A stretch of 64,000 bases of DNA from Agromyces salentinus. Its GTDB lineage: Bacteria > Actinomycetota > Actinomycetes > Actinomycetales > Microbacteriaceae. The notes beneath the pieces were generated by a model. The model ran no database searches. It was given only the letters and a program-made list of their open reading frames with translations, and had not been told where the DNA came from. The first letter of the stretch is position 1. Each line of letters opens with the position of its first letter. Positions 2,687-20,610 of the stretch are shown here, piece after piece. A program made the position numbers and the translations under genes. The DNA is taken from assembly GCF_009749395.1 (NCBI RefSeq), contig NZ_WBIR01000002.1, positions 62,001 through 126,000 on the forward strand. The letters run 5' to 3'.

Positions 2687-2727
2687 CCGCGCAGCTGAAC
2701 CGCACTGCAGATTCGGGCATCGGGACC

Positions 2728-3591
2728 ATGTCGTTCGACACGACGTGGCTCCGGTGCCCGAACTGCGTGGAGCCGCTCCACGAGGTCGGCCCACTCGTGA
2801 TCGGCTGCGCGACCGGTCACCGTTTCGATGTGTCCAAGTACGGAACCGTGACCCTGCTTCCGCCGAAGGCGCCTCGAACCACGGGCGATGATCGGGAGAT
2901 GCTCACGGCACGCTCGTCGTTGCTCGACAGCAGCGTCTACGCGCCGATCTCCGAGTCCGTCGTGGACGCGACGTTCCGCTGGCAGCCTGAGCCCGGCCGG
3001 CAGCGCATGTCGCCGCGTATCGCCGACTTCGGGTGCGGCACCGGCTACTACACGGCTGCGGTCGCGCGGGCGCATCCGGCTGCCGACGTCCTGGTGACCG
3101 ATCGGTCCCCGGTTGCGGCACGCATGGCAGTTCGCGCGGTCGAGGGGGCCACCGGTGTCGTCCTCGACATCTGGCGACCACTCCCCCTGCGAGATGGCGT
3201 CGTCGACATCGCCCTCAACATCTTCGCGCCCAGGAATCCATCGGAGTACGCTCGGGTCATCCGCGAGGCAGGCATCCTCGTCGTGGTCGTTCCCCGCGAG
3301 AACCACCTCGAGGAGCTCCAGCAGCGTGGCGACATGCTGTCCATACCCGAGGGCAAGGAACTCCAGGTCGCAACCGCCCTGGGCCAGGTCGGATTCGATG
3401 CCTTGGATCGAACCGGGCTCGAGTACGAAGCTCTCGTCGATGCTGCCCAGCGCCGTCTGCTCACGGCCATGGGGCCCACGGCCCATCACGCTCGCGAGGG
3501 CGAATCCGATCGACTCGACGAGTCCGTCGGCGCCATGAGCGTCACCGTCTCGGTCGAGGTCCTCACGTTCGAACGTCGACGCCCGGCCTGA
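2728..3591 (+). CDS. Putative RlmA-type 23S rRNA (guanine-N1)-methyltransferase
   Basis: SAM-dependent methyltransferase of the RlmA family, which modifies a guanine in a 23S rRNA hairpin. An N-terminal zinc finger is visible (C10-x2-C13, then C27-x3-H31), followed by the Rossmann SAM-binding motif DFGCGTGYY at residues 100-108. The length of 287 residues fits the family. The chosen ATG follows qcrB by 41 nt; the frame is open further upstream inside qcrB but the zinc finger starts right after this ATG. The exact target base (G745 or G748 type) cannot be told from sequence. A strong bidirectional hairpin lies downstream. Confidence 0.8.
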   Translation: MSFDTTWLRCPNCVEPLHEVGPLVIGCATGHRFDVSKYGTVTLLPPKAPRTTGDDREMLTARSSLLDSSVYAPISESVVDATFRWQPEPGRQRMSPRIADFGCGTGYYTAAVARAHPAADVLVTDRSPVAARMAVRAVEGATGVVLDIWRPLPLRDGVVDIALNIFAPRNPSEYARVIREAGILVVVVPRENHLEELQQRGDMLSIPEGKELQVATALGQVGFDALDRTGLEYEALVDAAQRRLLTAMGPTAHHAREGESDRLDESVGAMSVTVSVEVLTFERRRPA

Positions 3592-3712
3592 GCCCGCGCC
3601 GATACGACGCCGGCATGAGGACTGGCACGACACGGGCACCTGACATGGGTCGCGAGAACGCCCGGAGTCGGCTCGGGCACCCGCGGAACCCGCCGGAGTA
3701 CCTCCACACGCG

Positions 3713-3745
3713 AAACGGCCCTCACACCCGGTGTGAGGGCCGTTT
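3713..3745. terminator. Bidirectional hairpin terminator
   Basis: Perfect 15-bp inverted repeat AAACGGCCCTCACAC with a 3-nt loop, lying between the convergent methyltransferase gene and ctaF. T-rich ends on both strands suit termination in both directions. Confidence 0.85.
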
Positions 3746-3761
3746 CAGCGTAGGAGACCGG

Positions 3762-4184
3762 TCAGCGGGCGAAGTTCCCGCGGTAGTACTCGTAGACCCA
3801 GCCCACGAGGCTGATGACGCCGAGGCCGACGGCGATGAAGCTGATCCAGAACCCGACCGCCAGGCCGAGGAAGAGCAGAGCGGCCGAGGCCGCGAGCATG
3901 ATCGGCCACCAGCTCCACGGGCTGAAGAAGCCGAGCTCGGGGTCGCCGTCGTCGATGTTGGCATCCAGCCGGTCTTCGGGGAGCTCCGAACCCTGTGCCT
4001 TGTGCACACGCCCGAGGTAGAACGCGATGAAGGCGGCGAGCACGGCGCTCAACGAGATCGCCACGAGGCCGACCCACTCGACTCCGGGCTCGAGGTCGTC
4101 GACAGCCGTCCACGCGATGTAGATGGCCGCGGCGATCGCGAAGAATCCCGAGAGGATCCAGAAGAGAATCACATTCGCGCGCAC
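3762..4184 (-). CDS. ctaF: Cytochrome c oxidase subunit IV (CtaF), actinobacterial
   Basis: Small membrane subunit specific to the actinobacterial aa3-type oxidase and the bcc-aa3 supercomplex. The 140-residue protein is hydrophobic, with two N-terminal helices (starting NVILFWILSGFFAIAAAIYI) and a second pair after a central soluble linker. It starts with GTG immediately beside the ctaD stop codon (no gap), so the two are co-translated in a ctaC-ctaD-ctaF operon. Confidence 0.92.
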   Translation of the reverse strand: MRANVILFWILSGFFAIAAAIYIAWTAVDDLEPGVEWVGLVAISLSAVLAAFIAFYLGRVHKAQGSELPEDRLDANIDDGDPELGFFSPWSWWPIMLAASAALLFLGLAVGFWISFIAVGLGVISLVGWVYEYYRGNFAR

Positions 4185-13413: not shown

Positions 13414-15492
13414 TCAGGCGTCGATGCGCTCGCGCTCGAGGCCGTCGGCGCTGACCACGATGAACTCCTTGCGCGGTGCGACCTCGTTGCCCATGAGCAG
13501 TTCGAAGACGCGGCCGGCGTTCTCGGCATCGCCGAGGCCGACGCGGCGGAGGGTGCGTTGGCGACGGTCCATCGTGGTGGTCGCGAGTTGGTCGGCATCC
13601 ATCTCGCCGAGGCCCTTGTAACGCTGGATCGGATCCTGGTAGCGCTTGCCCTGCTTCTTCAGCGTGGCCAATACGCCGGCGAGTTCAGCCTCGGAGTACG
13701 TGTAGATCGTCTCGTTCGGCTTCGAGCCCGGGTTCATGACCACCACGCGGTGCAACGGCGGGACGGCGGCGAACACGCGGCCCTCCTCGATCATGGGCCG
13801 CATGTACCGGAAGAAGAGCGTGAGAAGGAGGGTGCGGATGTGAGCGCCGTCGACGTCGGCGTCGCTCATGATGATGACCTTGCCGTAGCGCGCCGCCGAG
13901 ATGTCGAAGCTCCGCCCGGAGCCGGCTCCGATGACCTGGATGATCGAGGCGCACTCCGCGTTGCCGAGCATGTCGGCGACGCTGGCCTTCTGCACGTTCA
14001 GGATCTTGCCTCGGATCGGCAGGAGCGCCTGATGCTCGCTGTCGCGCGCCAGCTTGGCCGTGCCGAGGGCGGAGTCGCCCTCGACGATGAACAGTTCGCT
14101 GTGTGCGACATCCGTCGATCGGCAATCGACGAGCTTCGCCGGAAGGGACGAGCTCTCGAGCGCGTTCTTGCGACGCTGCGTCTCTTTGTGCGCACGCGCC
14201 GAGATGCGGGACTTCATCTCGGCGACGACCTTGTCGAGTACCAGCGAGGACTGCGCCTTGTCGTCGCGCTTGGTCGAGGTGAAGCGGGCTCCCAGCTCCT
14301 TGGTGAGGACGTTGGCGACGATCGCCCGGACGGCGGGGGTTCCGAGCACCTCCTTCGTCTGGCCCTCGAACTGCGGCTCGGGCAGGCGCACGGTGATCAC
14401 GGCGGTGAGGCCCGCGAGGACGTCGTCCTTCTCGAGCTTGTCGCTGCCAGCCTTGAGGCGGCGTGCGTTCTGCTCGACCTGCTGGCGGAGGAACTTCAGG
14501 AGCCCCTGGTCGAAGCCGGCCTGATGCGTGCCGCCCTTCGGCGTGGCGATGATGTTGACGAAGGACTTGACCACCGTCTCGTAGCCGGTGCCCCAGCGCA
14601 GGGCGATGTCGACGGTGCACTCGCGCTTCAACTCGGTCGGAACCATCGCTCCGCCCTCGGTGAGGACGGGGACCGTCTCGGAGAAGGTGCCGCTGCCGGT
14701 GAGGCGCCAGATGTCGGTCAGCGGCGAGTCGACCGCGAGGTGCTCGGCGAACTCGGAGATGCCGCCCTCGAACTGGAAGGACGTGGTGCGCGGCTCATCG
14801 CCGCGCTCGTCGGTGACGTCGATCGCGAGCCCCGGCACGAGGAACGCCGTCTGACGGGCGCGGCCGATGAGGTCGTCGGTCTGGAACTCGGCGCCCTTGG
14901 TGAAGATCTGCCGGTCGGCCCAGTACCTGATGCGCGTGCCGGTGACGCCCTTGGCGACCTTGCCGACGACCCGGAGCTCGCTGCGGTCCTCGAAGGGCGT
15001 GAACGCGGCGTCGGGCGACGGCTCACCCGCATCGGCGAAGATGCCGGGCTCGCCGCGGTGGAACGACATGGCCCACGTCTTGCCGTCGCGGTCGACCTCG
15101 ACGTCGAGGCGCTCGGACAGGGCGTTGACCACGGAGGCGCCGACGCCGTGCAGGCCACCGGACGCGGCATACGAGCCCGACCCGAACTTGCCGCCGGCGT
15201 GGAGCTTCGTGAAGACGACCTCGACCCCCGAGAGCCCCGTCTTCGGCTCGATGTCGACGGGGATGCCGCGAGCCCGGTCGCGCACCTCGACGCTGCCGTC
15301 GGCGTGGAGCCGCACCCCGATCTCGCTGCCGTGACCAGCGAGCGCCTCGTCGACGGAGTTGTCGATGACCTCCCAGAGGCAGTGCATCAGCCCTCGGGAA
15401 TCGGTCGAGCCGATGTACATGCCTGGTCGCTTGCGGACGGCCTCGAGGCCCTCGAGCACGGAGAGATGGCGGGCGGAATAGTCGGAGCTCAC
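13414..15492 (-). CDS. parE: DNA topoisomerase IV subunit B (ParE)
   Basis: ATPase subunit of topoisomerase IV. The GHKL ATP-binding motifs are present (VLEGLEAVRKRPGMYIG, VDEALAG, GRGIPVD-like segment, GGLHGVGASVVN), then the transducer domain, and the TOPRIM domain with EGDSALG and the DADVDGAHIRTLLL metal site. The 692-residue version starts at GTG (protein MSSDYSARHL); an in-frame TTG lies 9 nt further upstream and is a possible alternative. TAGGCT sits 8 nt before this GTG on the same strand. Confidence 0.93.
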   Translation of the reverse strand: MSSDYSARHLSVLEGLEAVRKRPGMYIGSTDSRGLMHCLWEVIDNSVDEALAGHGSEIGVRLHADGSVEVRDRARGIPVDIEPKTGLSGVEVVFTKLHAGGKFGSGSYAASGGLHGVGASVVNALSERLDVEVDRDGKTWAMSFHRGEPGIFADAGEPSPDAAFTPFEDRSELRVVGKVAKGVTGTRIRYWADRQIFTKGAEFQTDDLIGRARQTAFLVPGLAIDVTDERGDEPRTTSFQFEGGISEFAEHLAVDSPLTDIWRLTGSGTFSETVPVLTEGGAMVPTELKRECTVDIALRWGTGYETVVKSFVNIIATPKGGTHQAGFDQGLLKFLRQQVEQNARRLKAGSDKLEKDDVLAGLTAVITVRLPEPQFEGQTKEVLGTPAVRAIVANVLTKELGARFTSTKRDDKAQSSLVLDKVVAEMKSRISARAHKETQRRKNALESSSLPAKLVDCRSTDVAHSELFIVEGDSALGTAKLARDSEHQALLPIRGKILNVQKASVADMLGNAECASIIQVIGAGSGRSFDISAARYGKVIIMSDADVDGAHIRTLLLTLFFRYMRPMIEEGRVFAAVPPLHRVVVMNPGSKPNETIYTYSEAELAGVLATLKKQGKRYQDPIQRYKGLGEMDADQLATTTMDRRQRTLRRVGLGDAENAGRVFELLMGNEVAPRKEFIVVSADGLERERIDA

Positions 15493-15500
15493 GTCGACCA

Positions 15501-15506
15501 AGCCTA
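15501..15506 (-). promoter_or_regulatory. parE -10 element (near-leaderless)
   Basis: TAGGCT on the minus strand, 8 nt ahead of the GTG start, so the predicted mRNA has essentially no leader. Confidence 0.45.
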
Positions 15507-15592
15507 CTGAGCGCCACCGACCCTCGAGCGCAGGCGCTACGCGCTGAGCGAAATGCCCGGTCCAACGGAAGGGCACGGGCTCAGGACGTGTT

Positions 15593-16025: not shown

Positions 16026-16769
16026 TCAGGCGACGGCGTCCTGGACGCCTGCCGCCGTGAGCTGCGCCCGGCGTGCGACATCCGCATACCCGTCGACGAC
16101 GCGTGCTCGTTCGCCCGCTTCGTAGGCCACTCCGGCCCGCTCGGCCATCGTCGCGAGGATGCGGTCCGCAAGTTCGGGGTTCTTGGCGAGCACCGGTCCG
16201 TGAAGATGCGTCCCGATCACCTCGCCCATGACGACACCCTCCTGACCGGAGCCCCGACCGTTGCCGTGGCCTGCCCGGACGCGGCCGAGCGGCGACGCCT
16301 CCGCCCCGACGTAGTCGCGGGCATGGTTCTCGAACCCGACGAGCGTCCGGCCCGTTCCGAGTTCGGTGACGACCAGGTCGTCGGTCACGCGACCGCCGGG
16401 CCGAGGCACGGCACGACCGGGCAGGATGCCGAGGCCCTCGATGCTGGAGCCGTCGGGGTGTTCGATGCCCCATGAGAGGAGCTCCCACCCCGTGCCGACG
16501 GCGAGGATCGGGACGCCCTCGGTGCCCCAACGGCGGAGCTCGTCGTGCAGCTCGAGCAGCAGGTCGCGACTGCGCTCGAGCGAGGCGTCGCTGCCCGAGC
16601 CGAGCACGACCGCATCGACGCGGTCGGGCAGGTCGGCTCGGGCCTCGACGGCGACCACGCGCGCGTCGATGCCGGCCCAGGCCGCGCGCCGGGCCAGCAC
16701 GGCGGCGTTCTCGGCGTCGCCGTTCGTGTTCTGCAACGACGGGACCAAGGTGATGATCGTGAAGGTCAT
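16026..16769 (-). CDS. GatD-like protein without the glutaminase nucleophile
   Basis: Homolog of GatD, the class I glutamine amidotransferase half of the lipid II isoglutaminyl synthase. The 247-residue protein keeps the family frame: NTNGDAEN near the N-terminus, FENHARDYVG, and the catalytic-His motif GTHLHGP (H190). But the nucleophile elbow, normally V-C-[AG]-G-[YF]-Q-L-L, reads AVGTGWELLSW, so Gly92 replaces the catalytic Cys and Glu replaces the Gln; the upstream GGGQD-type loop reads GSGSD. It therefore should not release ammonia from glutamine. It overlaps the MurT-like gene by 4 nt, so the two proteins probably still form a complex. Confidence 0.85.
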   Translation of the reverse strand: MTFTIITLVPSLQNTNGDAENAAVLARRAAWAGIDARVVAVEARADLPDRVDAVVLGSGSDASLERSRDLLLELHDELRRWGTEGVPILAVGTGWELLSWGIEHPDGSSIEGLGILPGRAVPRPGGRVTDDLVVTELGTGRTLVGFENHARDYVGAEASPLGRVRAGHGNGRGSGQEGVVMGEVIGTHLHGPVLAKNPELADRILATMAERAGVAYEAGERARVVDGYADVARRAQLTAAGVQDAVA

Positions 16770-18037
16770 TCCGCTCCCGTGAGTCCGAGGTGCGCGCGGG
16801 TGCGCCGCATGGAATCGGCCGAGAAGACGATGGTCTTCGTGCCCGATGCCGGCGCCGGCGCCGCGAGGAAGTCGTCGAGGGCGCGGCCGAGGTCGGGCTC
16901 GACCCGGTCGATCTCCACCCCGTCGTAGGCGAGCATCAGGGCGGCCTCCGCCGCCTTCGAGCCGGAGACGATCGCGACGCGGCCGAGGGAGGACGCATCG
17001 GTCGGCCAGAAGTACGACGGGTCGCGGACGTCGGAGCCGATGGCGAAGAGGACATCGGTGGTTCCGGGCTCGATGCTGTCGACGTTGAGCTGGTAGCTCG
17101 CCGGATTCTGCACGAGCACGAAATCGACCTCCTGCCCGCGCACGAGCACGCGCTCGCCACGGCCGAAGACCGCCGGAATCGCGCCGAGGGCGTCGGCCGC
17201 CGTCTGCCGATCGAACCGATCGCCGAGCACCGCCTTCGCGGTGGTGTACGCGGCCGTCGCGTCGACGCCGTAGTGGATGCCGCGGGCCGGAAGGCCGACG
17301 GCCACGACGGTGCCGTGATCCTCGATCACGGCTGAACGTCCGTCGACGCGCTCGAGGCGCACGCCGTCGCCCGCTTGCAGGCGTCCGGCGGCGGTCTGCG
17401 CATGGCCGAGGCCGCGCGGTGCCGCCGCGAGCACGGCCTCGGACACGCCGAACCGACGCACCGCGACATCCGGCCCGACCTTCAGGGCCAGCCGCTCGAG
17501 GTACGCGTCGTCGGCGTTCACCACCACCGTCTCCAGGGCGCGGGCGGCGATGCGTTCGAGCATGCCGGCGACCATCTCGGAATCGTGGAATCGGTCGATC
17601 TGGTCGACCATCACGTTCATGAGCGCGACGGCTCGGGCGTCCACGCCCTGCATGACCAGCGCGCCGTGGCCCTCGTCCATCTCGAGCACGGCCATCTCCC
17701 CCGGAACCCGACCACGCCAGTCGGCGCGCTCGAGGAGGGCGGAGGTCAACCCCTGGCTGATGTTCGCCGTCGACGGGTTGGTGAACACGTCGACGTGGTG
17801 CGCGCGCAGGATCGCCACGAGCATCTTCGTGGTCGTCGACTTGCCGCTCGAGCCCGAGACCACGACGAGCCCCTGGGGGAACCCGGAGAGCGTGCGCTTG
17901 AGGTAGTTCGGGGCGATGCGGTTGACGACGAGGCCCGGAACAGCCGATCCGCCGCCGGGCTTGCGCAGCCGGGCGGCGAATCGGGTGAGCCTGCCGACGA
18001 GGATCGCCGGCGCGTAGCGGAGGGCTCCAGCTGGCAC
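16766..18037 (-). CDS. MurT-like Mur ligase lacking the zinc ribbon
   Basis: Mur-ligase-family ATP enzyme resembling MurT, which activates the alpha-carboxyl of lipid II D-Glu. The 423-residue protein has a P-loop at residues 60-68 (VSGSSGKSTTTK, altered from the usual GTNGKTTT), the central-domain segment NVMVDQIDRF, and a C-terminal DUF1727-type domain (NPASYQLNVDSI, DVRDPSYFWPTD). It contains no cysteine at all, so the Cys4 zinc ribbon of typical MurT is absent, and the SWxWDxD-type segment that supplies the Asp of the GatD triad is changed to SYFWPTD. GTG start, 7 bp after the sigA stop. Specificity is probably changed; see findings. Confidence 0.85.
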   Translation of the reverse strand: MPAGALRYAPAILVGRLTRFAARLRKPGGGSAVPGLVVNRIAPNYLKRTLSGFPQGLVVVSGSSGKSTTTKMLVAILRAHHVDVFTNPSTANISQGLTSALLERADWRGRVPGEMAVLEMDEGHGALVMQGVDARAVALMNVMVDQIDRFHDSEMVAGMLERIAARALETVVVNADDAYLERLALKVGPDVAVRRFGVSEAVLAAAPRGLGHAQTAAGRLQAGDGVRLERVDGRSAVIEDHGTVVAVGLPARGIHYGVDATAAYTTAKAVLGDRFDRQTAADALGAIPAVFGRGERVLVRGQEVDFVLVQNPASYQLNVDSIEPGTTDVLFAIGSDVRDPSYFWPTDASSLGRVAIVSGSKAAEAALMLAYDGVEIDRVEPDLGRALDDFLAAPAPASGTKTIVFSADSMRRTRAHLGLTGAE

Positions 18038-18044
18038 CGCCGGC

Positions 18045-19355
18045 CTACTCGAGGTAGTCGCGCAGCGACTGCGACCGCGACGGGTGGCGGAGCTTGGCCA
18101 TCGTCTTCGACTCGATCTGGCGGATGCGCTCACGCGTGACGCCGAAGGTGTCGCCGATCTGGTCGAGCGTCTTCGGCATGCCGTCACCGAGACCGAAGCG
18201 CATGCGGATCACGCCCGCCTCACGCTCGCTCAGCGAGTCGAGGAGGGACTCGAGCTGCTTCTGCAGCATCGTGAAGCCCACCGCGTCGGCCGGGACGACC
18301 GCCTCGGTGTCCTCGATGAGGTCGCCGAACTCGCTGTCGCCGTCTTCACCGAGCGGGGTGTGCAGCGAGATGGGCTCGCGCCCGTACTTCTGGACCTCGA
18401 TGACCTTCTCAGGGGTCATGTCGAGCTCGCGGCTGAGCTCCTCGGGCGTGGGCTCGCGGCCCAGGTCCTGCAGCATCTGGCGCTGGACACGGGCGAGCTT
18501 GTTGATGACCTCGACCATGTGCACCGGGATGCGGATGGTACGGGCCTGGTCGGCCATGGCGCGCGTGATCGCCTGACGGATCCACCAGGTCGCGTACGTC
18601 GAGAACTTGAAGCCCTTGGTGTAGTCGAACTTCTCGACCGCACGGATGAGGCCGAGGTTGCCCTCCTGGATCAGGTCGAGGAACTGCATGCCGCGACCCG
18701 TGTAGCGCTTCGCGAGCGAGACCACGAGGCGGAGGTTCGCGCCGAGCAGGTGGCTCTTGGCACGCTGGCCGTCCTTCGCGACCCACTGCAGTTCGCGACC
18801 GAGCTGCGAGCGCTTCTCGGCATCGGTCATGTGCGAGAGCTTCTCCTCGGCGAACAGTCCCGCCTCGATGCGCATCGCCAGCTCGACCTCTTCGGCCGCG
18901 TTCAGCAGTGCGACCTTTCCGATCTGCTTCAGGTAGTCCTTGACCGGGTCCGCCGTGGCCCCCGTGATGGCGCTCGAGTAGACGGGCACATCGTCCTCGT
19001 CGTCGACCGCGCGCAGGACGAGGGCGCCGGTGGGGTGGGGCTCGACGGCGACGGGCTTCTCCTCCTCGTCCTCTTCGGTCGTCGCGGCATCCGCCTCGTC
19101 GACGACCACTGCCTCGACCTCGACCTCGACGTCTCCGGGCTCGGCGTCGTCCTCTTCGTCATCGCCGGACTTCGCGGCGCCGCGCGGCTTCGTCGTCGCC
19201 TTGGCGGTCGTCTTGCGCGGCGTCTTGCTCGCCGGGGTGGCCTTCGCGGCGGTCTTCGTCGCAGCCGCCTTCGTGGTCGACTTCGCGGCCGTCGTGCGGG
19301 CGGCAGGCGTCTCAGCCTCGGCCTTCGCCGGCGTCGCAGCTTTCGTCGTTGCCAT
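18045..19355 (-). CDS. sigA: Primary RNA polymerase sigma factor (SigA/RpoD/HrdB)
   Basis: Housekeeping sigma-70 factor. The 436-residue protein has an Ala/Lys/Thr-rich N-terminus (to about residue 70) and an acidic stretch, then regions 1.2 to 4.2: the core-binding and -10-recognition segments ([30 protein letters not shown]) and the region 4 helix-turn-helix near [10 protein letters not shown]. The ATG has an AGGAG ribosome binding site. Two promoter-like elements lie in the 328-bp upstream gap. The murT-like gene follows after 7 bp and may be read from the same transcript. Confidence 0.95.
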
Positions 19356-19421
19356 TGGTGAACCTCTCCTACATCGCACGTCGCGTGCCCGGTGGGGATC
19401 GCGGATCGTGGTGGTCCGAAG

Positions 19422-19450
19422 ATTTCGGACACTATGAGGACCCATGTCAA
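19422..19450 (-). promoter_or_regulatory. Second possible sigA promoter
   Basis: Consensus TTGACA (19445-19450 on the minus strand) with a poor hexamer CGAAAT 17 nt downstream. The -35 is perfect but the -10 is weak, so an alternative sigma factor or an activator may be involved. Confidence 0.35.
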
Positions 19451-19506
19451 GTCCGCGAGGTGTTCGCACGAAATCGTGCCCGCGGACCAGAACGGGTCCT
19501 TCCCTC

Positions 19507-19512
19507 ATTATA
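19507..19512 (-). promoter_or_regulatory. sigA promoter -10 (TATAAT)
   Basis: Exact TATAAT on the minus strand, rare in this GC-rich sequence, giving a leader of about 145 nt before sigA. No strong -35 is visible. The rest of the 328-bp gap (19356-19683) shows no further gene. Confidence 0.55.
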
Positions 19513-19683
19513 CAGGCGCAGCGCTCCACTGCCGTACACGTCCGGCAGCGCGCCGTCCGTGCCCGACCCGCGCACGCCCACCGGTATGAGTGATGCAACG
19601 ACTGGGGCAGGCCACGCATTCCCGATCGACGCACCCGCCAGCGCGATCGACCGGAGTCCCGGCCCTCGCCGGCGAGAGATTTC

Positions 19684-20610
19684 TCAGCTGCCGAGCGGCG
19701 ACTCGTCGTCGTGCCTGCGGCGCACGGCCAGGAACTTCTCCAGTTCGGCGGCGATCTCGTCCGCGGAGGGCAGCTCGCCGCCCTCGTCGGTGAGGGGCGA
19801 CCGGAGGGTCGTCTCCTCCATATAGGTATCGTGACGCTCCTCGAGCGTGCCGACGAGCCGGGCGAGCTCCGCATTGCCGGCGACCTGCTCGTCGATTCGC
19901 GCGACGAAGTCCCGGTTCTGCTCGCGCAGGCTGTCGGTCGGGAAGATGCGGCCGGTGGCCTTGCTCACGGCCTCGAGCGCGGCGACGGCCGCGGCGGGGT
20001 ACTCGGTGTCGCTCAGGTAGTGCGGGATGAGCAGGACGAACCCGACGATCGGCTGCCCGCTCTCGTACAGCCGGTACTCCACCAGGTGCAGCGCGTTCGC
20101 AGGCGCCTCGGTGGTCGGCCGCCAGACCGAGAGCGCCTCCACGAGCTCGCCACGGTTTCCGCTGACCGTCATGCTCACCGGACGGGTGTGGGGCACGGGC
20201 ATCGGGATGGCATTCAGCCAGGTGGTCGACGACACGCCGAGCCGATCGATCAGCTGGAGGACCGCCGCTCCGAAGCGCTCCCACTGGAAATCGGGCTCGT
20301 AGCCCGTGAGCAGGAGGAACTGCTGGCCGATCTCGTCCCGCGCGAGCGAGAGCATGAGGCGCGGCGGACGATAGTCGGTGATGTGGTCCTCCTCGAAGAG
20401 GATGACCGGACGGCGCGCGCGATAATCGAGCAGCTCGTCGGCGTCGAACGTCGCGACGACGACGTTCTCGAGGGTTGCGAGCAGGTAGTCGGTGGTCTGC
20501 GCGACGGCTCCCCCGGCGTCGGCGAACCCGGTCAACCCGGCGATGAGCGGCAGGCCGCGAGGCACCTCGACCTCGGGGCTGAGCTCGTACAGGGAACGTG
20601 GATCGCGCAT
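19684..20610 (-). CDS. PAC2 family protein (proteasome assembly chaperone-like)
   Basis: Conserved actinobacterial PAC2-family protein of 308 residues, related to archaeal and eukaryotic proteasome assembly chaperones; its actinobacterial role is not established. Typical family sequence is visible: [20 protein letters not shown] at the N-terminus and the [13 protein letters not shown] segment, with a helical C-terminal part. The ATG is 6 nt from a minus-strand TAGGCT. No proteasome gene is present in the window. Confidence 0.85.

Follow-up and report, generated by a model that had tools for sequence, protein, structure and literature searches.

The closest described relative of the genes reported here is the MurT/GatD isoglutaminyl synthase (Staphylococcus aureus, 6gs2 and 7q8e; Streptococcus pneumoniae, 6fqb), which amidates the alpha-carboxyl of D-glutamate (D-Glu) in peptidoglycan. 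A murT/gatD-like pair was found in a stretch of 64,000 nucleotides from the soil bacterium Agromyces salentinus (Microbacteriaceae; contig NZ_WBIR01000002.1, positions 62,001 to 126,000). This whole stretch is called the window. The window pair shares with the synthase the two-gene order, the Mur ligase middle domain with MurT_C, and the GATase_3 fold. It also shares the P-loop, the Mg-binding glutamate, the triad aspartate, the glutamine-sequestering arginine, and, in the window, the triad histidine. It differs, together with the group called class III below, in lacking the nucleophile cysteine, the gate tyrosine, and the Cys4 ribbon, and the oxyanion glycine is altered. The window pair also falls far below the NCBIfam equivalog cut-offs.

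The nearest cysteine-bearing relatives in our tree are the class II MurT/GatD pairs of other families in the order and of Leucobacter and its allies. They differ from class III in having the cysteine, the histidine, the tyrosine, and a DGRD segment with three extra residues, and in long loci they are not beside sigA. MurC to MurF contain the same middle domain and probably share the acyl-phosphate chemistry, with an amino acid amine as the proposed nucleophile. They differ in that the window MurT does not have the uridine diphosphate-binding first domain and does have a GatD partner. The ATP-grasp D-aspartate ligase of Enterococcus faecium is a dedicated D-amino acid bridge ligase. It is a precedent in role but is nonhomologous, and it acts on the lysine side chain, not on the D-Glu carboxyl.

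The class III pair is predicted to be an ATP-dependent ligase that joins a bridge amino acid to D-Glu, as one of two interchangeable systems. From the sequence comparisons below, we put the chance of this at about even. The pair itself is a variant of the known MurT/GatD kind.

Glutaminase and ligase residues

Pairs were sorted by the GatD nucleophile residue and the MurT ribbon. Class I is canonical with a Cys4 ribbon (2 rows), class II has the cysteine without the ribbon (12 rows), class III lacks the cysteine (70 rows), and class IV is very diverged (5 rows: L072, L075, L076, L078, and L128). Another 31 rows come from outside the family. Class III contains 70 GatDs and 69 MurTs, the MurT of L065 being an 84-residue piece. 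Class IV stands outside the class III counts and the tree, yet it is counted as MurT positive in the survey below.

Excerpts of PMC6113224 report that S. aureus GatD C94S and C94G are inactive and that the activity of MurT D349N is abolished or severely reduced; D349, the triad aspartate, sits in DGRDTSW. The GatD variants R128A, C94A, and H189A were unable to deamidate glutamine according to excerpts of PMC5871853. None of the 70 class III GatDs has cysteine at the nucleophile position (glycine in 53, alanine in 12, serine in 2, asparagine in 2, and threonine in 1), and none has the gate tyrosine. The share of the oxyanion glycine is 0.04, and that of Gln98 is 0.29. The triad histidine is kept in 50 of 70 and lost in 20. 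All 45 cysteine-bearing GatDs read have the cysteine, the gate tyrosine, and the oxyanion glycine. Class III GatD is predicted to be unable to hydrolyze glutamine by the known mechanism.

Several cysteine-less GatDs carry the database names "Lipid II isoglutaminyl synthase (glutamine-hydrolyzing)," "cobyric acid synthase," or "type 1 glutamine amidotransferase." Because the nucleophile is lost, "glutamine-hydrolyzing" cannot be right by the known mechanism.

The residues of the ligase are retained. The P-loop lysine and the Mg-binding glutamate are each present in 69 of 69 class III MurTs (rows with the column filled). The glutamine-sequestering arginine is retained in 65 of 70 class III GatDs, along with several structural residues. 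The window pair keeps both H190 of GatD and D339 of MurT. Glycine at the nucleophile position and asparagine at the gate were found in 120 of 120 GatD relatives of the window protein (the best 120 of 621, own protein included), so G92 is not a sequencing error. In a further set of 41 listed database proteins, 39 lack the cysteine; the exceptions, P0276 and P0278, carry it.

Loss of the zinc ribbon was considered as part of the same change and was rejected, since ribbonless pairs with the cysteine occur in other families. The ribbon is absent from all 12 class II pairs read in the family and from 25 of the 31 pairs read in other families (present in 6). The tie between ribbon loss and repurposing that the initial annotation had drawn is thus not upheld. 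An excerpt of PMC6085368 places the cysteine tetrad in "some Actinobacteria."

Distribution, origin, and selection

The family survey covered 100 genomes, which were searched with GatD alone, a GatD profile, and a MurT profile. Genomes with a MurT match at E < 1e-20 were scored as MurT positive. GatD alone matched in 76 genomes. With the MurT profile, 80 genomes were MurT positive and 20 were without MurT. By the loci read, the 80 comprise 12 genomes with class I or II only, 5 with class IV, and 63 with class III (two from MurT alone). Two of the class III genomes also contain a cysteine-bearing class II pair (L020/L052 and L048/L030).

The order survey covered 297 genomes, including the window's family. 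The GatD profile matched 104 of these at 1e-20, of which 13 were in the family. The loci read were 78 family stretches plus loci of the order, including 31 of the 91 matching genomes outside the family. All 31 pairs read outside the family contain the cysteine and the histidine; they come from nine further family codes in the order. Within the order, cysteine loss was seen only in the window's family (31 of 91 nonfamily genomes read). Genus code g85 contributes more family genomes to the order sample than any other; there, GatD matched at 1e-20 in 4 of 12 listed genomes.

To our knowledge, all Microbacteriaceae have type B peptidoglycan; passages on named genera agree, and type B was assumed for all 100 family genomes. 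For the initial annotation, a cysteine loss that does not track type B taxa would be a refutation. Its reading stands in so far as, within the order, cysteine-less GatDs were seen only in the family. It fails within the family, where Leucobacter, Canibacter, and Lysinibacter keep the cysteine; these are the names, where given, in another set of GatDs with cysteine and tyrosine in 120 of 120 (the best 120 of 7852). Given these cysteine-bearing members and the 20 MurT-less genomes, the pair is not the universal type B bridge ligase and would serve at most part of the type.

The 69 class III MurTs form one clade, set off by a branch with full support, and the cysteine state changes once among 114 MurTs. 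The tree is a quick one that excludes class IV and short pieces and has some long branches flagged. Ratios of nonsynonymous to synonymous substitution (dN/dS) were calculated by the Nei-Gojobori method with our own script; synonymous sites were partly saturated in some pairs. For 10 class III pairs, dN/dS was 0.09 to 0.32 for GatD and 0.06 to 0.24 for MurT. Four cysteine-bearing pairs gave similar values (0.11 to 0.35 and 0.07 to 0.30). Judging from these ratios, the ligase is under selection without the glutaminase. Decay of the pair, which had been offered as an alternative at the outset, is rejected by values well below 1 together with a single clade and a single cysteine loss.

The sigA-parE locus

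The class III pair of the window sits between sigA and parE. We define long loci as family or outside loci of at least 5400 bases. Among these, sigA was present in 38 of 38 class III loci, 3 of 4 class IV loci, 0 of 12 class I or II loci, and 0 of 29 loci from outside the family. In six ParE loci from lineages that are class I, class II, or MurT-less, sigA is close to parE but the pair is absent. One genome (G006; L110 and L050) has the pair adjoining sigA and parE elsewhere, so the constant class III neighbor is sigA and not parE.

No hidden diverged MurT/GatD was found near sigA-parE in the 15 stretches read from MurT-less genomes. Present there are genes of the CofE-like (PF01996) and ATP-grasp (PF14397) kinds and, in several cases, an alanine-racemase-like gene. 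Among the 20 named stretches read, the order was sigA-MurT-GatD-(racemase)-parE in 10 and sigA-CofE-like-ATP-grasp-(racemase)-parE in 8. The ATP-grasp gene adjoins the CofE-like gene in 8 of 8. The racemase is present in 2 of the 8 CofE-like stretches and in 5 of the 10 with the pair at sigA-parE. In all 14 MurT-less genomes with a CofE-like gene and a located ParE, the two were no more than 7 kb apart.

Two MurT-less genomes with an ATP-grasp gene in the sigA-parE gap also encode a diaminobutyrate-2-oxoglutarate transaminase there (L120:1705-2982, EctB type; a homologue in L124 near 2696-3928). His is at the nucleophile position in three class IV pairs. Cassettes of an intermediate kind thus exist: within this class, L075 and L078 adjoin an ATP-grasp gene, and L076 adjoins a distant CofE-like gene. 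A second cysteine-less MurT/GatD pair occurs in Glaciihabitans tibetensis (L312:5539-7655); the stretch read there contains neither sigA nor parE.

Mutual exclusion of the two systems

The MurT and CofE-like genes almost exclude each other. Among the 100 family genomes, 1 has both, 79 have MurT (any class) only, 15 have the CofE-like gene only, and 5 have neither (Fisher 9e-13, kinship ignored). The 16 genomes with a CofE-like gene are 15 MurT-less genomes and G053, a class IV genome with a distant match. The ATP-grasp gene (E < 1e-100) was found in 17 genomes, 13 of the 20 MurT-less genomes versus 4 of the 80 MurT-positive ones (Fisher 2e-8, kinship ignored). Weaker ATP-grasp matches were found in two further genomes. 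A ParE tree of 30 genomes requires 10 changes of MurT presence, and its independent pairs are 4:0 as expected (P = 0.125). Both states occur within genus codes g7 (G006 and G089) and g9 (G008 and G091).

The named sample was collected with a neutral neighbor protein, which gave 80 titled loci. Of these, 48 (mostly isolates) were searched for GatD, and the same 48 plus 2 were searched for the CofE-like gene. The pair was present in 36 of 48. Of the 12 genomes without it, 11 have a close CofE-like gene. None of the 36 carriers does; one of them, Marisediminicola senii, has a distant match (E 1e-36). GatD was read in 33 of the 36 carriers, and none contains the cysteine. On the tree of the 48 named genomes, the independent pairs are 2:0 as expected (P = 0.5).

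Swaps were found within two genera. Lacisediminihabitans profunda has the pair and Lacisediminihabitans changchengi has the CofE-like gene (sister rows, starred). Salinibacterium soli has the pair and six other Salinibacterium have the CofE-like gene. A swap within Leifsonia was not counted, because the Leifsonia-labeled metagenome-assembled genome (MAG) with a CofE-like gene falls with Salinibacterium on the tree. The pair is present in all 24 records of the Cryobacterium clade. Two other records labeled Cryobacterium group with Terrimesophilobacter and do not contain the pair.

An extra Mur ligase was considered as a replacement for MurT. It was ruled out in 15 of the 17 MurT-less genomes searched (of 20), with the weakest matches unlisted. 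These 15 contain five Mur ligase domains, and the listed carriers contain six or more.

Wall chemistry

Excerpts of PMC7033078 list diaminobutyrate (DAB) walls for L. profunda (B1alpha), Glaciihabitans (B10), Cryobacterium (B2gamma), and Compostimonas (B1). They list lysine and ornithine for Salinibacterium (B) and D-ornithine for Homoserinimonas (B2beta). Herbiconiux is B2gamma with D- and L-DAB in an excerpt of PMC10011130. Subtercola and Agreia are B2gamma and Frondihabitans is B2beta in an excerpt of PMC5945732.

The class III pair is present in the genomes searched from Cryobacterium, Glaciihabitans, Compostimonas, Herbiconiux, and L. profunda (one of two Glaciihabitans GatDs was read). 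The CofE-like gene is present in 6 of 7 Salinibacterium and in 2 of 2 Homoserinimonas MAGs (MAGs were searched for the CofE-like gene only). In the named genomes, class III goes with DAB walls and the CofE-like gene with lysine or ornithine walls, with exceptions. Five DAB genera or species and two lysine or ornithine genera agree; Leucobacter, Mycetocola (presumed lysine wall), and S. soli disagree. Agromyces itself we take to be B2gamma with DAB. The dat transaminase (TIGR00709) was tried as a proxy for DAB walls and was rejected, as all 100 genomes match through paralogues.

The pair in the window

Both genes are coupled open frames on the minus strand (Table 1). MurT is 423 amino acids (aa) long, with its GTG at 18037, seven bases past the sigA stop. 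GatD is 247 aa long and starts with the ATG at 16769, in a 4-base overlap with the MurT stop. Neither protein contains a cysteine. The adjacent genes have the domain makeup of the synthase, a Mur ligase middle domain with MurT_C and a GATase_3 partner. GATase_3 scores 67 bits and Mur_ligase_M scores 41 bits. MurT_C is borderline, at 24.1 bits in the window protein search and 27.3 in the genome search (cut-off 25). NCBIfam scores are 80 bits for MurT versus a cut-off of 800 and 106 bits for GatD versus a cut-off of 450. The best-scoring named GatD relative is from Agromyces terreus (84 percent identity). The homology of the window genes to MurT and GatD is real.

Table 1. Features of the locus in the window
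Feature	Position	Strand	Remark
MurT-like Mur ligase, class III	16766..18037	-	cysteine-free, without zinc ribbon, GTG start; sole MurT_C match of the genome
GatD-like class I amidotransferase homologue without nucleophile (pseudo-glutaminase)	16026..16769	-	
P-loop GSSGKS of MurT (ATP site; residue 62)	17837..17854	-	
MurT D339, aligns with S. aureus triad Asp D349	17021..17023	-	alignment and excerpt of PMC6113224
GatD G92 at the catalytic Cys position (S. aureus C94)	16494..16496	-	within AVGTGWELLSW
GatD H190, triad His, retained in the window	16200..16202	-	
GatD R127, aligns with S. aureus R128 (glutamine sequestering)	16389..16391	-	role from excerpt of PMC5871853
GatD N16 at the capping/channel-gate Tyr position	16722..16724	-	role from excerpts of PMC6085368 and PMC5871853
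sigA (principal sigma factor), one locus boundary	18045..19874	-	open reading frame exceeds the gene at the 5' end
parE/gyrB-type topoisomerase subunit, other locus boundary	13414..15576	-	

Most of what the initial annotation read from the pair itself was borne out. Translation and alignment agree on G92, on the GatD loop GSGSD, and on the retained H190, and the cysteine-free, ribbonless MurT with its P-loop, as well as the intact, coupled frames, were found as described. A second canonical MurT/GatD pair, which would have counted as a refutation for the initial annotation, is absent from the organism's own genome, where MurT_C matched once and a single such GatD was found. The triad aspartate had been placed in SYFWPTD. 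The aligned residue is D339 in RDPSYFW; it is retained and lies outside SYFWPTD itself.

One genome with the window's genus code (L150) has GatD across two reading frames, from a frameshift or a sequencing error.

Discussion

If the pair is a bridge ligase, MurT would phosphorylate D-Glu of the lipid-linked stem peptide at its alpha-carboxyl, which is also what the canonical MurT does. Instead of ammonia, a bridge amino acid would then attack the acyl-phosphate with its amine. Most named carriers have DAB walls, and there the most likely nucleophile would be a diamino acid, for example (D-)diaminobutyrate. GatD, as a structural partner, would make no ammonia but may still hold the amino acid through its conserved arginine. 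The CofE-like and ATP-grasp genes would encode equivalent chemistry for bridges of the lysine or ornithine type. Speculatively, a one-ligase cassette with DAB and a two-ligase cassette with lysine or ornithine would fit the attachment of one and of two residues.

A wider proposal is that the sigA-parE interval is the missing type B bridge locus, in which the glutaminase-dead MurT/GatD attaches DAB directly to D-Glu and the CofE-like and ATP-grasp genes make lysine or ornithine bridges, with a dedicated racemase beside either of them in some cases. We hold this tentatively, with the balance leaning somewhat against it. The claim of the initial annotation that the pair is a repurposed bridge ligase survives in the lost glutaminase, the selected ligase, the exclusion by other amide-ligase genes, and the association with DAB. 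It does not survive as a universal type B role.

Several observations weigh against a bridge ligase. The independent pairs (4:0 and 2:0) are too few. At most, the exclusion shows that the systems are equivalent; it does not tell which reaction they share. The 12 genomes with only class I or II show it too, so it is no special property of class III. Neither system is present in five family genomes, and two MurT-less genomes have extra Mur ligase domains (seven in G020 and six in G023). The Pfam name of the ATP-grasp family is "sugar-transfer associated." Of the 38 long class III loci, 13 contain the racemase-like gene, and the window has no match to it. Among the listed genomes with the window's genus code, 1 of 7 does not have the pair, and 1 has the split GatD.

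The wall data add to these points. Mycetocola reblochoni (P0245), whose diamino acid is presumably lysine, has a cysteine-less pair. S. soli has the pair although its genus is listed with lysine and ornithine. In the excerpts cited above, Cryobacterium and Herbiconiux are the only carriers listed as B2gamma; L. profunda, Compostimonas, and Glaciihabitans are listed under other subtypes, so a single D-DAB reaction for all carriers is doubtful. Leucobacter salsicius walls contain DAB in an excerpt of PMC4148977, and Leucobacter GatDs keep the cysteine. The dat gene is above its cut-off in 18 genomes, 5 of them MurT-less, and does not separate by class III. In the open literature, no published activity, substrate, or wall analysis of such pairs was found.

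The complex may still amidate D-Glu, from free ammonia and with GatD as a scaffold. Mammalian carbamoyl phosphate synthetase 1 (CPS1) uses free ammonia without its cysteine, the fold family and the partner are the same here, and the ATP-site residues of MurT and the triad aspartate are kept. We consider this unlikely. The ammonia-gate tyrosine is lost throughout class III while the amino acid-binding arginine is largely kept. The alternatives at the locus belong to the CofE-like and ATP-grasp superfamilies, which we take to include amino acid ligases, and an alpha-amide would, as we understand type B walls, block the bridge site. The pair could instead add a capping residue or a side-chain decoration such as glycine to D-Glu, not a bridging diamino acid. 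Patchy presence with losses within genus codes would fit this, as would the two-gene alternative cassette, which hints at the addition of more than one residue, and the listed wall subtypes that differ among carriers. The near-complete exclusion with the second system suggests a needed function, and the association with the diamino acid and the racemase neighbors in part of the loci point away from a decoration, which makes it distinctly unlikely.

A role in another pathway, such as the polyglutamate tail of coenzyme F420, is very improbable. CofE and the ATP-grasp CofF both ligate the F420 tail, and the Mur-like ligases include folylpolyglutamate synthase. The alternative gene does belong to PF01996 (F420_ligase) and is usually followed by an ATP-grasp gene. 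It scores 35 bits against the 181-bit cut-off for true CofE, however, and the solved CofE was matched at E 0.018 only; MurT/GatD is a cell wall pair, and the wall diamino acid tracks the cassette. That the pair is a decaying or nonenzymatic relic, being lost after a change to type B walls, is hardly credible. The MurT-less genomes and the split GatD would fit such a relic. The single clade, dN/dS of 0.06 to 0.32 over both genes, the invariant P-loop lysine and Mg-binding glutamate, and the replacement gene in 15 of the 20 MurT-less genomes all argue against it.

The open papers searched contained no earlier report on GatD/MurT of Microbacteriaceae (most subscription papers were outside the search), none on CofE-like and ATP-grasp genes that exclude MurT/GatD at the level of the locus, and no description of the enzymes that tie the type B cross-bridge to D-Glu. 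A pair that alternates at one locus with unrelated genes of amide ligase superfamilies gives a small, testable gene set for type B bridge synthesis. It may be a natural case of an amidotransferase turned amino acid ligase. The locus swap suggests a way to find the enzymes that build this unusual cell wall cross-link. It also offers a route to predict wall chemotype from genomes: if the bridge ligase reading is true, the chemotype of a member of the family would be readable from its sigA-parE cassette.

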